The notes below the pieces were generated by a model. That model ran no database searches and was not told the origin of the DNA. It worked only from the letters and a program-made list of their open reading frames with translations. The translations under genes and the position numbers were made by a program. From positions 7,311,586 to 7,375,585 of the forward strand of contig JARUPZ010000007.1 in NCBI GenBank assembly GCA_031213475.1: DNA of 64,000 nt. Direction: 5' to 3'. Shown piece by piece: positions 54,634 through 63,266 of this stretch; the stretch's first letter is position 1, and every line of letters starts with the position of its first letter. This DNA comes from Nereocystis luetkeana. Its lineage: Eukaryota; Sar; Phaeophyceae; Laminariales; Laminariaceae.

Positions 54634-54860
54634 GGTACTGCTTTGAATGAGGCTGAAAGCATTTGCAGTACTTGAGAGGCGTATCTGAGATGGAAAAGCA
54701 GGGGTTTTCACTGCGAGGCACAACCTTGGTTCTCAGTCTCCGCGCACGAAAGGAATAAAACTGCTCTTCTTCTATCTCTGAGCAAACAACACTCGTGAGT
54801 ACCAACGAGTACCGACTTACAAGGCAAACCTGTCCAGGAATACAAAGTGTTCCGAGACCT
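54634..54860 (+). repeat. Dispersed repeat family R3, copy 1
   Basis: Shares GCACGAAAGGAATA, CTGCTCTTCTTCTATCTCTG, GAGTACCAACGAGTACCGAC and CAGGAATACAAAGTG with 58695-59012 and 59312-59590. All three lie in the same direction. Confidence 0.7.
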
Positions 54861-55389
54861 TGATCTTAACAGGATGCAGCATATTTTGCAGAAAGCACTC
54901 ATGATTGTTTTATCCGTGATTATAGTTCTTCGCTTCTCTACTAACGGGCATATTTGTTTGCGCCATTCACGCGTAAATGGCTTAATCTCCAGGTTGCGCT
55001 CACAACAAACAACTTTGTGTCACGTGAAACGGTAACACTGAGGCTAACCTATCCCCCCGAACGCCGGCACAAAATCCCTTGGCATTTATAAGAACATAAT
55101 ATTATTGAGGGGGTCCAATGAGGGGCGCGCGTTGAAGGACACGTCCCGCCTCACGCCTGCCAAAGTGACTAATCGATCCAGTAAATCACTTAATTTGTCT
55201 GCGCGAAAGATGCTTTTGAACGGCGTCGCAGGTCATCGGCCTAAATGATATCACTTGTCGACTAGGGGTGTTCCACCAATAAAAAAATATCTTTGATTTT
55301 TTGTATTACTGAGAGAACTGTCGGCACCGAATACCTCTCCCAACAGGACTTGCCATGCGCAGGATACACAATACACCGGACGAGATAGA

Positions 55390-58300
55390 TCAAACGCTGT
55401 CCTTCGGCACTGGTGTCGGTAGTTTTAACGCAGACGTGACGAGCTCCTCGACTTCGATCAGGCAGCCCGTGCAATCTCTAAGCCGTTGCTGCCCTCCAGG
55501 AACTTCCCGATACAGCGAGGAAGAGATGCCGAGGGCGTCCTTCACCCTCCTGCTTGATAGGCCGCGGTGACAGTCGAGTCCACGCGTCGGATGGCGAGGT
55601 GGGAAAAAGGAGCCGCAAACAAGCGAGGTGGTAACAAGATCGAGATGCGAGTTGACGTGCGAAAGATAGAAACATGTCGTAACACATGGAATAAAATATC
55701 ACAAACGAAATTGACGTGGAACACCTTTGCACCTCAGGCTATGTTTTGGTCGATTTCTTCTTTCCTTTCGGTACGAAACAAACCGACCACACAGTACAAC
55801 CGCTTTTCTTCTGTACGGCGCAGGTAGTCCGTATACTAGCTCTGCGCACAAGCTGCACGTGATAACCACTGCGACCCTTCACCTCGTGTATAGTGCACGC
55901 AGAAACCCCTGCGACCCTTCACTTTGCAAGCCACATCATGCAAAACACCTTGCCTCCAGCACCCGACGCTTACCGGGCCTCAGCTTCTCCCACCACGGGA
56001 TCCCCAAGGCCGTGGACCATCGCCATCCACTGGCAGCCCCTCCTCACTCGCGGCCAAACGTACGCCCTTCCGTGCCTTTCTCCAGCGTGATACATTTCAC
56101 CTCCGGGACACACGAGAACTGCCCCCCAAACCTGGAGGACAGCAAAGCGGCGTTGTTGCGCAATTGTAACGTATGGAACGAAGAACACAGCGCCGGCGGG
56201 AAACGCTGTGTTATTTCCGCGTGGACTGCGCTTCAGTCGCCGACACCGTACGCGCTCCTCGCTTCGTTCAACAAGGGCAGTGGTGGAGCTTCCCCCCCGA
56301 AATACACAATCAAAGCTGGTCGTCAGGGCGGGTGCGCGCACGTATTATTCATTGACTACGTGCTGTGCGTTGCGCTCAAGTAAAGCTGAGGATGACGAGC
56401 CCAACAAAGTGAAGGCGGTGCTGTTTTTTTTGGGGCTGCGCTAACGGCTGGAGGGACTACTTTAGTATTTTGTCGGAAGGCAAGGAGAGAGTGCCCTCAT
56501 GCGTAGAGTATGGTGACCCAGAGAATAACACTCTCAATAACACCCGTATGCCGATGCTCCCACCGTCAGTTTTTTCGTGTTTTTGGGTACACAACTACCA
56601 ATACGCAGCATGGTGTTCGAAAGACAGGTCTCGCCCTGGGACTCATGATCTAGTGTGTCCGTGCCCCTCGGGCGAGATTGGTTTCAAGTCGTAGTACTAG
56701 TCATCCCAACAGGGTAGGGGCAGAGTGCTCTCACAGGGATGTCACAGGCCATGACCAAAAGGCACGAAAGCAAATGGCAAGACCCAAATATCCCATGATA
56801 TGCCGCACCCCATATTATGCCGATAGCCTGAAACGGGCATTGCAGCTGTCACAATGTAGAAGAGTCCAAACCAACATACTGCGGGGGCCACCGTTTGAGA
56901 AGGGCGATGGAAACGCTCACCAAGCTAGTCACGCTTACTTAACCCCTATAGGACTGCACCCACGTTTTTGGGGCCCAACTATTTGGAATTAGTGTTAGAT
57001 ATAATTTCAAGTAGGAACAGAGTTAGTCTCTCTCGCCGATAAGAAAATGCGGTCTCGATAATCGAAAGCGGCGTAAGTGTGGCGCGCATGCTCTGCCCTC
57101 GGGGTGCAAACTGCGCCTGGCTGGCCAGTAGTAAGGCCGACCGGCAAAACGTACGCGGTGCTATTTAGAGATCAGTGGAAAAACCTTGCCTCGTGCTTCT
57201 CGGCGAAACGGAGGACGGCATCCGCTGCCGTACCATGGGCCACCACAAGCGTCCCCGGGCAAATGACAAGCTCGTCCACCATAGCGTTCAGCCAAAACGT
57301 TTCATACCTGTGGCGGCAAACGCCAACGGGAACATGCAACAATTATGCTAAGTATTCGACGGTTGAGCTTATGGTTTTGAAACCATGAAGGGATGAACGG
57401 AGACTCCTACGCGTATGATACGACGGTTTCACACCTCGGGCAGGTCATCTGCAGGTCATTCCCACTTGATGATCTAGATCCCTCAAGACAGACCTATTCC
57501 CGGTCGTGTATGATCTACTGTAGCTCGTGTTGCCAGTTAGGACCCGTTCAATCTGCATGATCTAGCACATGTTTCCTGGTTTGGATCTGTCCAACGCAGA
57601 TCCTGCAAAACATCTCGCTAAGGCTGGTTAGGAACAAGATGATCTACTGTAGATGGATAGATAGGTAGATAGATAGATACTTATATATATATATATATAT
57701 ATATATCATGATCTATCTGATCTGTCCGAGGTGTGGAAGGTTCGTTGTCGGTGTCTCAAGTACAAACAGCGAAGGATCGCCGGCAAACACTGGTAATATG
57801 ATACCAGGTAGCCAATCTCTACCAGCAGCTATCATTGATACTTCGTACAAATATCAACACTTTACTTTCGGTGGAGGTGCTTGTTTGACTATTAATCATC
57901 GCGGCTGTAGACGCGTCCGCTAGTTGCACGCGTGTCTTATCACCATGATCGAGGAAGAGAGCATGCTGGTACAAACGATTCACACCACCACCAACACACA
58001 CATGGGTCGTGCCTTAAATATCACAGACCCCACGCATACTTGAATTGTATCCTTGTATTATTACAGCAGACCCTTGCCATGTACCAACATGCCACGTACC
58101 CGGGTCGCACCATTCCATGTATGTATCCGACTGCCTCGAGGGGCAGGCCCACCAAGCCAAGGACTCATCTGGAAACAAGTAACTCAGAACAATAATACAG
58201 CATTATTAGTGCCCATAAGCAGATCCCAGCGCAAGGAGGAGGGTTATGCCGCTCAATGGAATCAGGTAAAAAAATGCCTCACCTCTTGGTATTGAAAGAA

Positions 58301-60257
58301 TACGGGTCTGGCATGCCTTCGATTGATACATCCATGCTCTTTTCCGCCAGCAGCGTCGCCTACACGGACGGGTGCGCCGAATCGTAATGTATGGATGTCG
58401 GATATTTGGCTCGAGACAGACAGATGGATCAGTTCAACATTCCAATCCTCTAAAATCTAAAATAGAACCCCGTGGGCATCACCCCCTCCCCCGTAATTTT
58501 GTGCCCAACACTGAAAGACTGTGGTGTACTATTAATACGAGTATAGGATACAAGAGTACGGGTCCGCCAACAAGAACACCTGACCTGAGCTAGCCTCAGA
58601 CAGCATCCTTGTTTGACCTTGCGTATTTACTATTATATATGATTTAGCGTAGAGCTCGCCGCTGAGGGCATTTTATTTCTCCAACTTTCTTAGCGTCCGT
58701 GCTATGATACGGCCTTGAATGAGGTTGAAAGCCCGGTAATCACCTGGGTTCAGGCACTGGGATCGTATTTGTAGCACTTGGAAGGCGTATTTTAGGTGGA
58801 AAACCAGGGGTTTTCCAGGAAACCAGGGGTTTTCCAGGAAACCAGGGTTTTTCCAGAGACGCATGCATGAGCTTGGTCTCAGTTTCCCCGTGCACGAAAG
58901 GAATACAGCTGCTCTTCTTCTATCTCTAAGCAAACAACACACGTCGGTACCAACGAGTACCGACTTGATATGCAAACCTCTCCAGGGATACAAAGTGTCC
59001 CGCCTGCTGGTGGCGTCGACGGCAGGACAAAATCGTTCACGCTTTTCCTTCGACGGCAGGACAAAATCGTTCACGCTTTTTCCTTCGACGGCAGGACAAA
59101 ATCGTTGACGATGTTTCCTGCCTCTGAAGGCTAGGTCTTCCTTTCGTTTTTCTCTACGTACTTTGTCGGCTTCGTTGCCTTGCCGTTCAGAGGTGTGGGA
59201 GTGGGTTTTGAGGAGCCACATCTTCGACTCATGCTCTAGTCTAGTCCGTGGAATCGGGGTTTCCATGATTTTCCCATAACGCTGCATGCACGGCTAATCA
59301 GAGTGGGCTAGTGTAATGATGCTGCCTTAAATGAGGTTGAAAGCCCGGTAGTTACCTGGGTTCAGGCACTGGGATCGTATTTGTAGTACTTGAAAGGCGT
59401 AGTTTAGGTGGAAAACCATTTAGGTGGAAAACCAGGGCTTTTCCAGAGACGCACGAGGTTGGTCTCAGTCTCTCCGTGCACGAAAGGAATACAGCTGCTC
59501 TTCTTCTATCTCTAAGCAAACAACACGCGTGAGTACCAACGACTACCGACTTGATAGGCAAACCTGTTCAGGGATACAAAGTGTCCCGCCTGCTGATCTT
59601 GACATCCGCCCAAAAGTGAGCCTTTTGTTCTTATTCAGGTAGGCTCTTTCTTATTCGTGGGTCTATACTATAGTATACTTCAGACTTCGGAGTATAGTGG
59701 TATCATAGCTGTCGAGTTTCAAACTGACCAGTCGCCTTTGGTACAAAGTTTTGCTTGTTGTTAAATCTTCTAATCGAGTCGTAGTGCGGCGGTACAACAG
59801 TAAGTCCTGATGGGTGTCCAACACGACACATGGCAACTTGAACATGTCGTCCACATCACCGCACTTGTTCACAGTTTGGTAGAACGACGATATACCATAC
59901 CTGGTTATTTCAAACCGAGTTCATCCTTTGCCCTTCTAAATGCGAACACCCTCATGTCCCATATATAACTGCTGCTGTGGAGAAAGCCTGGCCGAGGTGA
60001 TCACCTTCAATTTGTTCGCACCTACGCACGCTTCGTGACTCGGGAGTGCTTGCCTTCAGATGGTGATGCCACAGATCCCTGTCGAGCACCTCGGCTCTGC
60101 TGTCCGGCAATATCAACACTCGCCTAGGGAAGCTTGGGCGATCGTGCGATTGCGGTTTGGCTGCACCGCCGCCCCGAGGGGAAGCGGCCACACCGAACGC
60201 ATCGACCCCTTCGCTTGAGATCAGCAACGTTGCTACTGCTGTTATCGCGGCGTACAT
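55390..60257 (-). CDS. Plastid-addressed RBBP9-family alpha/beta hydrolase-like protein, catalytic residues apparently lost
   Basis: Exons (minus): 60257-60030, 58359-58283, 57307-57190, 56131-55974, 55549-55390 (TGA); 246 aa, phases match. MYAAITAVATLLISSEGVDA/FGVAASPRGG is a signal peptide plus complex-plastid cleavage site. The mature part follows RBBP9: RRVLILP and LWHHHL; GMPDPYSFNTKRYETFWLNA (human NMPDP...IWLPFM); TLVVAHGTAADAVLRFAEKH (human IIIGHSSGAIAAMRYAETH); VHGLGDPVV (human FGSTDDPFLP); LYREVPGG and EVEELVTSAL at the C-terminus. The nucleophile box GHSSG reads AHGTA, so Gly replaces Ser. The Asp is kept. The position of the His reads PGGQQ. A non-catalytic role is likely. The intron after 57190 needs a GC donor (GAG/GCAAGG); the nearby GT would break the frame. 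The exon-5 acceptor is NAGNAG (55549 or 55546). The start at 60257 is preferred over the ATG at 60338 because the signal peptide begins there. Confidence 0.77.
57427..57738. mobile_element. About 310-bp MITE rich in GATCT motifs, copy 2
   Basis: Ends TTTCACACCTCGGGCAGGTC and GATCTGTCCGAGGTGTGGAA in inverse orientation. The interior has a GATA/TA microsatellite (about 57655-57707). In an intron of the RBBP9-like gene. Confidence 0.75.
58695..59012 (+). repeat. Dispersed repeat family R3, copy 2
   Basis: Begins CCTTGAATGAGGTTGAAAGC, includes GGTTCAGGCACTGGGATCG and three short GGTTTTCCAGG units, and ends AGGGATACAAAGTGTCCCGC. It spans much of a 204-codon minus-strand ORF, which I therefore discount. 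Confidence 0.75.
59018..59112 (+). repeat. 34-bp tandem repeat, three units
   Basis: Units of CGACGGCAGGACAAAATCGT followed by TCACGCTTTTCCTT, directly behind R3 copy 2. Confidence 0.9.
59312..59590 (+). repeat. Dispersed repeat family R3, copy 3
   Basis: Same block order as copy 2, starting GCCTTAAATGAGGTTGAAAG and ending ATACAAAGTGTCCCGCCTGC. It lies with copy 2 in intron 1 of the RBBP9-like gene. Confidence 0.75.
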
Positions 60258-60582
60258 TTGCTTCGTACGACGTGGTACAGTACTGCAAATGTGGAGATCG
60301 AGACATGTCTCATGAACAAGCGGGACTGTCAGCTCCAAAACAACATAAGGTACATTTTGTCTTTTGTGACTATATGAGCATCCCTTATATATACGATCAT
60401 TACGAGTTCTTTACTGGTACGTATCTAAAGCATAAGTAAAGAAGGGTTTCCAATGTAAGAAAACAACGCCGCCTGCGGGGTCTGCCCCAGATATAGACTG
60501 CTGACTCGGCAGCTTTGTGCGCAGTGTGTGCCGCCCCGATTCGAAGAGCAGGAGAGGACGTCACCATCCCTGCGTGACGACC
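60258..60582. promoter_or_regulatory. Shared promoter region of two divergent plastid-protein genes
   Basis: The RBBP9-like start (60257, minus) and the lumen-protein start (60583, plus) are 325 bp apart and point outward. Near the plus start, GGACGTCACC and GCGTGACGAC carry two TGACG-type (bZIP/CRE-like) cores. Co-regulation is inferred from the layout. Confidence 0.5.
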
Positions 60583-63266
60583 ATGAAGATCTCTGTGCTG
60601 GTCGCGTTCGTTGCCTGCACGGTGTCGAATCGCTCTCGGTGTGACGCATTCTACGGCTCAGTTCAAGTGATTCCCAGAACAAGACACCACTGCTTGTGCA
60701 GCGGCAGTAGCCGCAGCATCATCGACAGCAGGTGCTCTTCCCACACGAGCTACAACCACCGCCGCTCCCACCGCCGCAGCTCCCTCAAGGCGGCTAAGGG
60801 CGGAGGCGAGGAAGGGAAGAAGTTCAGCAGCAGCCCCAGTAGCTCGGATAGGCGTGACTTCGTGCGGGGCGCGGCGGTGGCACTCGGCGGCTGTTCTGCC
60901 ACGATCTTCGGCGGGGGCAGGAAGGCCTGGGGGGTAGGAACACAGCCCGGGGAGAGAACAACTGCGCCGCCAAATCCGCTGCTACTTGTGCCGGCTGTGC
61001 GCGCGAAGGTACGGGAACCGCTTGCAGCGGTAGTAGTGCATACTTATTGTGCTGTAACAGTTGATGGTGGCGTGTCGCGTGTACGGTACGTGAGGTCACC
61101 GTGTCTGTTGCCGTGTTGAAGAAACACGAGCTTGCGGGACGTGTGCGATCATGTAAAAATACCAAGCTCTGACTCGTCCCTACCTCCGTCGATCGAACGC
61201 ACTTGATTTCTTCTGCATATACTTGGAATGCTTGACTACCTCTTGACACCCAGTCGCCAGTGTGATGGCACGGAGAGGTGGGCTGTACGCCGGAGTCGTG
61301 CCGACAGCAATATGCAAGATTCCCCCCTCTGCTTCGAATAATCCATCAAGCAGTAGTGGCAGTCGTGGACTACGGAGCTGCCAAGCGTGAAGATAAAAAT
61401 ATCAAGCTTGGCAGACAGCTGACTGCCTTGCTAACAAACTGCCGGCACGGGGGCCCTAAATACCATAAATACCTGGTATCATATAAGCTCAATCTGCAAT
61501 CTTCGATACTGGTACAGCAGTATCACAAGGTTACGAATGCCCTCTAGGGTTTGTGGACTCCGAGTAAGGGTATGGAAGTCTTTCAGAACTTAAAGAAGTT
61601 CCAGGCAGGGGTATGGAAGTCTTGCAGAACTCACAGAAATTCCCCGTATTTTATGGACGTCCCATTTAGAAAACTCACAGAAGTTCCGCGCGGGTACGTG
61701 AATGTTGTACCCGTGTACCGTATCGGGTACCGGGTATATATATACCCCGGTATTTACCCTATTTTGCGGGTATTCACCCTACTCAAAGGCCGGGTACGAG
61801 TATGGGATGCCTTACCCATACCCCGGGTATTATGGCATGGGCGCACATGACTTCCAGAAGTTACGGGCATGGGTATGAATTCATACATACCTCACATAAG
61901 TCCCGGGTACAAGTATGAATATCGTACGGAGCTTACCGAAGTTCATTGTGGGGTAATACCCGAGTAAATACCCCGGATATGGTGCTGCATGTGCCATACA
62001 GAACACAGCGTTGCAGGTTATGTTAGCTTGATCTTTCATCCCTGCCTTTCCTGGTTGCCGTGCGTTGTGCCTTGTCTTAGTATCTGTTGCTGGTGGTACT
62101 GCTGCTCGTAGTGTCGTAGTGACCACTTTGTCTTACGATATACCGTTACGCTTAGTGTATGTACTCCGTAAAAGGCACCATTTACCTTGCAGGAGGAGGC
62201 ATGGGGTACTCTGTCGAATCTCCTACGAACTGTAGGTACGAATCATGTCACTGAAGGAAAAACCGCTGAACGGTGAGGTCCTCAGGTATCCATACCAGGT
62301 ATAGGATACCAGGTATAGCAATGTACGTACATCGACATGTTTCATGCTGGTACCCAACTTGCATGTTTTTCAAGTATAACATCAGCCGCCGACGTTCGCT
62401 GTTCAGTGCCCAACACCAGGGAGCCCTACGTGCCGTAGTGCTAGGACATTCATGGCACGCCCGTAGCATTCAGTGCGCACAGGCGTGTTGTATAGTTCCG
62501 CGGAGTTAATTGCTGTGTGGCGGCTGTAAAACCTTCAGTTGTTTTATTGTTGTCTTCATGCCCACGGCTGATGGCATGTTGCGAGCGACAGACCCAGAGG
62601 CAAGGCAGGACTTTGATGCCTGGTAAGGGATACCCAGAGGGTTCGAAAGGCTCGTACAGCACGATATTTACATAGGGCATACTAGACGTATCAAGTTAGT
62701 GCGTACTACTCGTACCACCACATGCTGGCATGCTTGCAAGAGGGCGCTCAATACTTTCATGAAACAATCGCCGCTACGAGGGGAGCGCTCTGTACCTGCG
62801 AACTATTGCGTGTGTCTCGTATTTTGTGACCACAGAGCTTGTATCTCTCTAGCATGAAGAGTCATCACGGATATTGGATGTGGTAGAGGTCGATGGGTAG
62901 GAAGAGCGGTGTAACATGAAGAATACACGCACACTCTAATTTGCTTTCTTCGACGGTATCCGAGCACCAACAACTCTAAACACCACCGCCCTCTGTCCTC
63001 GTCATACCCACCTGATGTCCCCACGTCCGAATCATACCGAGACGTTCTAATCGTACCGTCGCGCCCGCCAATACCAGCTAGCGGTGGAGGGGGTGCTGAA
63101 ACTGCTGAAGGATCCCTCCAAGTGGGACGAAGCGCGAGAGGCGCTCAAGTCACCCCCCCTGGCCCCGGCAGACTTCAAGACCTGCTTTCGTACGTACAGC
63201 GATGCGGACCCGGAGCAGCACCTGGCTTTCGACCTGTACCGAATACAGGCGCAAGAGGCCCTGAAG
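60583..63266 (+). CDS. Thylakoid-lumen protein with twin-arginine signal, possibly PsbQ-like; 3' end not resolved
   Basis: Exons 60583-61008 and 63078-63266 join in phase 0 (205 aa visible); a further exon must follow GTAATT at 63267, inside or beyond the window. MKISVLVAFVACTV...DA/FYGSV is a signal peptide with the complex-plastid Phe site (Phe at 23). A basic Ser/Arg-rich transit-like region follows. Then DRRDFVRGAAVALGG (RR at 90-91) is a twin-arginine signal, so the mature protein should cross the thylakoid membrane. The mature part reads NPLLLVPAVRAKLAVEGVLK, then LLKDPSKWDEAREALKSPPL and DFKTCFRTYSDA. It is helical and resembles the PsbQ four-helix family in layout (helix, DP-W-ARxxL, FKxxFxxYSD). 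That family call is tentative, and any small lumen protein is possible. Confidence 0.68.
61551..61965 (+). repeat. Degenerate tandem region with CAGAAGTTCC and GGGTATGGA units
   Basis: Roughly 55-60 bp units built on GGGTATGGAAGTCTT and CTCACAGAAGTTCC, interrupted by GGGTACCGGGTA-type stretches. In the intron of the lumen-protein gene. Confidence 0.6.

Follow-up and report, generated by a model that had tools for sequence, protein, structure and literature searches.

The question raised by this locus is what becomes of a serine hydrolase gene once the residues of catalysis are gone. In a 64,000-nucleotide (nt) stretch of DNA from the kelp Nereocystis luetkeana (contig JARUPZ010000007.1, positions 7,311,586 to 7,375,585 of the forward strand; hereafter the window), a minus-strand gene encodes a relative of human RBBP9 (retinoblastoma-binding protein 9) in which both the nucleophile and the catalytic His are replaced. 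With moderate confidence, and from sequence evidence, we favor the explanation that its product is a maintained plastid pseudoenzyme, i.e., an RBBP9-family relative that has lost catalysis and would serve a non-catalytic binding or scaffold role. The alternatives that have to be weighed are a recently dead gene, an enzyme with an altered mechanism, and a maintained non-catalytic protein that resides outside the plastid.

A five-exon gene related to RBBP9

The first-pass annotation of this DNA had placed five minus-strand exons from 60257 down to 55390 and had described the frame as open throughout. Splicing reproduced these coordinates exactly and bore out the open frame: the exons join in phase into 717 nt running from ATG to TGA and encode 238 amino acids. 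The exons are as follows.

60054..60257, minus strand: exon 1; start ATG, signal-peptide-like core, DA/F, basic transit-like stretch
58283..58359, minus strand: exon 2; ATLLAEKSMDVSIEGMPDPYSFNTK, carries the family MPDP motif
57190..57307, minus strand: exon 3; YETFWLNAMVDEL...LVVAHGTAADAVLRFAEKHE, nucleophile elbow, Gly at the Ser75 position
55974..56131, minus strand: exon 4; VWGAVLVCPGG...GLGDPVVGEAEAR, catalytic-acid loop, Asp138 retained
55390..55549, minus strand: exon 5; RVKDALGISSSLYREVPGGQQ... to TGA, Gln at the His165 position

The four introns measure 1694, 975, 1058 and 424 nt, with donors GC, GT, GC and GT and with AG at every acceptor. Exon 1 also encodes the first strand of the domain (RRVLILP) and the loop DSRAE, where RBBP9 has GNGGG. 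A 145-nt repeat has three copies (54717-54861, 58865-59009 and 59451-59595) and a 108-nt repeat two (58699-58806 and 59311-59418); they lie downstream of the gene and within intron 1.

Kinship with the RBBP9 family, as had been claimed, was supported by alignment and by a phmmer search against all PDB chains, in which the best matches of the window protein (residues 44-194) were human RBBP9 at E 2.9e-10 and 3e-10, values that are somewhat flattered by the original choice of the exons for their likeness to RBBP9. When RBBP9 residues 4-155 were searched against the 64-kb window by tblastn, exon 3 ranked first (E 2.7e-4; the runner-up reached 0.41), and the remaining exons were individually unremarkable, exon 2 lying at E 22. 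A hidden Markov model (HMM) built from 49 family members scored the window protein at 22.0 bits and placed exons 3 and 2 first and second among the 260 frame segments of the locus, at E values (0.021 and 0.84, respectively) that alone are not significant. NCBIfam gave no match to the window protein. Identity amounted to 48 of 174 aligned residues with RBBP9 and 39 of 164 with YdeN of Bacillus subtilis, compared to 45 of 172 between RBBP9 and YdeN; measured in this way, the window protein is about equally distant from both as they are from each other. It is collinear with RBBP9 (PDB 2QS9, 7OEX and 9FCR) over the domain, with W23, MPDP, H74 and D138 in common (RBBP9 numbering, used throughout), and it pairs with RBBP9 in a phylogenetic tree (100/96), in which these two are the only eukaryotic rows and its own branch is long. 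The domain is likewise common to YdeN and the prokaryotic relatives in Pfam family PF06821 (Ser_hydrolase). Judged by its sequence, the window protein belongs with RBBP9 and YdeN, though it scores under the Pfam cut-off, and it fails the catalytic features that define the family.

Losses at the active site

Conservation was scored over the same 49 members, i.e., RBBP9, YdeN and 47 prokaryotic relatives fetched by pattern scans of genome contigs (the first scan gave 51 pattern matches and no relatives, the second 84 matches and 47 relatives); the scan pattern included W23 and W26, which makes the counts for these two residues circular. Across the sample, G12 is Gly in 48, S75 is Ser in 47 and Gly in 2, and H74, G77, D138 and H165 are His, Gly, Asp and His in all 49. 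The window protein deviates at four of these six positions (G12D, S75G, G77A and H165Q) and retains H74 and D138. In contrast, the 47 prokaryotic relatives have H165, D138 and G77 in 47 of 47 and S75 in 45 of 47, and RBBP9 itself has all four of the residues that the window protein lacks. The motifs singled out earlier (MPDP, FAEKH and GDPVV, and also AHGTA and GGQQ) are all present in the spliced protein, with MPDP being less strict in the family (Met in 37, the first Pro in 48 and the second Pro in 16 of the 49).

These residues sharpen the first-pass description of the active site. A nucleophile box reading AHGTA in place of GxSxG was seen, its Gly aligning at Ser75 of RBBP9, and the Asp of GDPVV aligned with the catalytic Asp138 as proposed. 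The loss of the catalytic His also stands, with Gln at His165 in both alignments, but GGQQ in one of them aligns under CGHF/GGHF and is not the counterpart of GHFQ. What did not hold was the limitation of the loss to Ser and His, the extent being wider: besides G12D and G77A, residues of the ligand site are not retained. In the structure of RBBP9 with Phe, the ligand residues are given as Tyr99, Leu103, Glu108, Ser76, Phe140 and Leu141 (PMC8866121); in the window protein, Y99 and L103 fall in gaps, E108 is Tyr, and Ser76, Phe140 and Leu141 are gaps or changed. An alternative exon carrying GxSxG was looked for by a minus-strand pattern search of 55000-60600 and with the family HMM over the 260 frame segments, and none usable was found in the locus. 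Three minus-strand GxSxG matches in that interval were set aside: two include a stop codon, and the remaining one (56564) falls within intron 3 in an unrelated context.

Not until 2022 was human RBBP9 reported to be an aromatic aminopeptidase, in work that describes its S75A form as catalytically inactive (PMC8866121). With the residues it has, the window protein cannot carry out hydrolysis by the RBBP9 mechanism and is not an aromatic aminopeptidase of that kind. An enzyme in which Ser75 and His165 have become dispensable, working for example through Asp138, the elbow His or a cysteine, is quite improbable. Such an enzyme could draw on the retained Asp138 and elbow His and on a Cys at the Ser97 position; however, all 49 of the 49 family members have the elbow His, which makes its presence nothing special, while the oxyanion-loop Gly and the second elbow Gly are lost as well and the ligand residues of RBBP9 are not retained. 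The alpha/beta-hydrolase fold is probably intact, because the residues retained are core positions of the family (W23, M44, P45, P47, W55, R83, E86 and D138). Non-enzymatic proteins of this fold are described, in the NDRG family and others, in which the triad is changed to non-reactive residues and the fold is kept, as proposed here; NDRG3 is one with a fully replaced triad (PMC7022630). NDRG is a separate family, studied in human, and is not found in the seven PDB sequences matched by the window protein.

The leader and a putative plastid address

In addition to the domain it shares with RBBP9, the window protein has a leader that resembles the plastid type. Its hydrophobic core spans residues 3-13 (AAITAVATLLI) and has a Kyte-Doolittle mean of 2.42; after it the sequence reads VDA/FGVAASPRGGGAAKPQSHDRPSFPRR, the Phe being F21. 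The net charge across residues 21-46 is +4, and the domain starts ~24 residues past F21, the intervening stretch being basic and acid-poor. By inspection and simple scoring, this leader looks like a secondary-plastid presequence. In diatoms, 63 plastid precursors are described with Phe or Tyr past the predicted signal cleavage site and with mature ends 13-42 residues further on (PMC3774753). The alternative that the protein is maintained and non-catalytic but resides elsewhere than in the plastid, its leader being an ordinary signal peptide or serving another membrane system, agrees with the absence of positive charge before the hydrophobic core, but the Phe directly after the likely cleavage site and the 24-residue basic, acid-poor stretch, which are like those of the diatom precursors, argue against it, and we give this alternative little credence.

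Under the favored explanation of a maintained plastid pseudoenzyme, a nuclear gene in a secondary-plastid alga would encode an RBBP9-family alpha/beta-hydrolase relative, and the protein would be sent to the plastid and its leader removed there. With nucleophile, base, oxyanion-loop Gly and second elbow Gly gone from the serine-hydrolase machinery and the triad reduced to its Asp, the protein would most likely act as a non-catalytic binder or scaffold, its retained fold engaging a partner in the stroma, either a protein or a peptide, as non-enzymatic proteins of this fold probably do. RBBP9 is named for binding the retinoblastoma protein, and it may thus have a further role that is free of catalysis. 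As in the first-pass annotation, we propose a new plastid role for the RBBP9 family; a literature search found nothing that joins RBBP9 to pseudoenzyme or to chloroplast, or retinoblastoma binding protein 9 to algae, and the papers returned by a broader search did not mention RBBP9.

A divergent neighbor that starts at 60583 on the plus strand has a similar leader (CDA/FYGS) and a twin-arginine stretch (RRDFVRGAAVALGG), and its first-exon frame gave no Pfam match. Such a leader with a twin arginine is what a thylakoid-lumen protein imported by the twin-arginine translocation (Tat) pathway would have.

Maintenance or decay

Two of the 49 family members, one from a proteobacterial metagenome-assembled genome (L030) and one from Acinetobacter guillouiae (L047), have Gly at position 75; both read AHGLG and have the Asp and His intact. 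In the genus of A. guillouiae, 52 of the 79 genomes searched, which were drawn from a larger group, contained a match with an E value of at most 1e-30, and loci were obtained for 30 places of the match list (L068-L097). At the Ser position, the 36 YdeN-type proteins in these loci have Ser in 20, Gly in 14 and Glu in 2, such that 16 of 36 are without Ser and 14 show the change to Gly at the same position as the window protein. These proteins differ from the window protein in being bacterial, in having no plastid leader and, for the Gly versions, in retaining His165. In L079 and L080, Ser is replaced by Glu (AHEFG) and His165 by Gln (AGQF), the latter change being identical to that of the window protein.

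We compared pairs of these genes by their nonsynonymous and synonymous divergence (dN and dS). The dN/dS values of two Gly pairs were 0.058/0.769 and 0.079/0.868, those of a further nucleophile-less pair 0.134/1.14, and the L079/L080 pair, in which Ser and His are both lost, gave a dN of 0.075 and a dS of 0.745; most of the remaining listed pairs had a dS above 1 or beyond estimate, where the ratio is approximate, and one entry of the list compares a gene with itself. Because dN is far below dS in nucleophile-less pairs, members of the RBBP9/YdeN family that lack the nucleophile and are kept by selection, by this measure, do exist, and they were found in this analysis. On YdeN as a hydrolase with a catalytic serine, the literature gave one structural survey. 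In an 85-row tree lacking the window protein (Ser 68, Gly 15, Glu 2), from which repeats (L047, L063 and L067) and weak matches with E above 1e-40 (L062, L064 and L065) were left out, the distribution of Ser versus not-Ser needs at least six changes. Among these 85 rows position Gly77 is Ser in nine and Ala in none, in contrast to the Ala of the window protein. In 4 of the 30 loci (L075, L082, L089 and L097), a copy with Ser and one with Gly lie side by side on the same strand, ~140-175 bases apart, and such neighbors are perhaps a living and a dead partner. That the RBBP9/YdeN family repeatedly gives rise to selection-kept non-catalytic proteins with recurring Ser75 to Gly and His165 to Gln changes, comprising an algal plastid-imported binder with both and several bacterial cases including living and dead copies side by side, is a broader idea that we hold tentatively, at slightly below an even chance. 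If true, a catalytically dead member kept in the plastid and repeated nucleophile losses in bacteria would be natural separation-of-function material for studying non-hydrolytic roles of the fold.

The opposite possibility is that the gene died recently, i.e., that catalysis was lost and the sequence has since drifted neutrally with a stop not yet acquired. Five open, in-phase exons with start and stop present do not favor this, and a neutral simulation (2000 trials each) gave a probability of no stop of 0.054 at 0.15 changes per site and 0.006 at 0.3. Of nine active-site positions common to RBBP9 and YdeN, six or seven are changed, according to how the His loop is aligned. The joint probability of no stop with at least six of the nine changed did not exceed 0.0013 at any of the four divergences tried; this supposes that all nine were still intact at the loss of catalysis and that positions change independently, with indels ignored and the nine positions picked after the alignment had been viewed. 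The open frames and the depth of active-site loss therefore argue against neutral decay, and together with the conserved nucleophile-less relatives in bacteria they make it likely, as far as sequence can tell, that the window gene encodes a maintained non-catalytic protein, as first suggested.

Several points weigh against a maintained plastid pseudoenzyme, beginning with the assumptions of the simulation and the choice of its nine positions. Two of the four introns have GC donors (60053 in intron 1 and 57189 in intron 3, in the contexts AAG/GCAAGC and GAG/GCAAGG), and these splice sites could be decaying. By inspection, the alignment with RBBP9 is gap-free across both junctions; intron 1 has an alternative in-phase GT donor 24 nt downstream, which would add 8 residues, and no comparably good substitute was found for the GC donor of intron 3. 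The G+C content at third codon positions is 0.65 in the exons, below the 0.75, 0.79 and 0.79 of three further stretches of the window that are presumed to be coding. Active-site positions are retained in 2 of 9 cases and other conserved positions in 17 of 36 (Fisher p 0.26); the losses are thus not significantly concentrated in the active site, which implies that the window protein has diverged broadly. Its PF06821 score of 18.4 bits (E 0.0022) misses the curated cut-off of 22, and the hydrophobicity of the leader core was reached in 249 of 10000 cases when the first 63 residues were shuffled, making it suggestive only. The GC donors, the low third-position G+C and the long branch of the window protein (3.93 in the tree) would all suit a dead gene; weighed against the open exons and the simulation, we regard that outcome as unlikely.

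A dead gene is also disfavored, within the limited sensitivity of the searches, by the failure to find an intact copy elsewhere: the 465-Mb genome yielded neither a second copy nor an intact paralogue, a negative that leaves absence unproven. PF06821 gave no genome match at E 0.001, RBBP9 only one (L008) at E 7.8, and YdeN none; PF06821 and RBBP9 missed the window gene itself, and protein searches of the genome proceed exon by exon, which makes them weak evidence for the absence of a paralogue. The whole window protein returned its own five exons and one chance match (L007). A DNA search with 55390-57320, which holds exons 3-5, returned the locus itself and at least 41 others, all within positions 302-672 of the query, i.e., in intron 3; 40 of 50 candidates were scored, making such counts lower bounds, and only the protein search extended to exons 1 and 2. 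Intron 3 contains, at 56649-57019, pieces of dispersed repeats that are present on many contigs of the genome. No relative was found in three scans of viral contigs or in the plasmids and phages searched, and one viral-contig match (L001) was rejected as an 11-residue chance match inside an unrelated open reading frame of 691 amino acids.

Elsewhere in the window, a plus-strand frame at 16207-16659 matches the GRAM domain (PF02893, E 1.5e-6), and a minus-strand frame at 45421-45924 matches the CLIC-like N-terminal domain (PF22441, E 4.8e-5).

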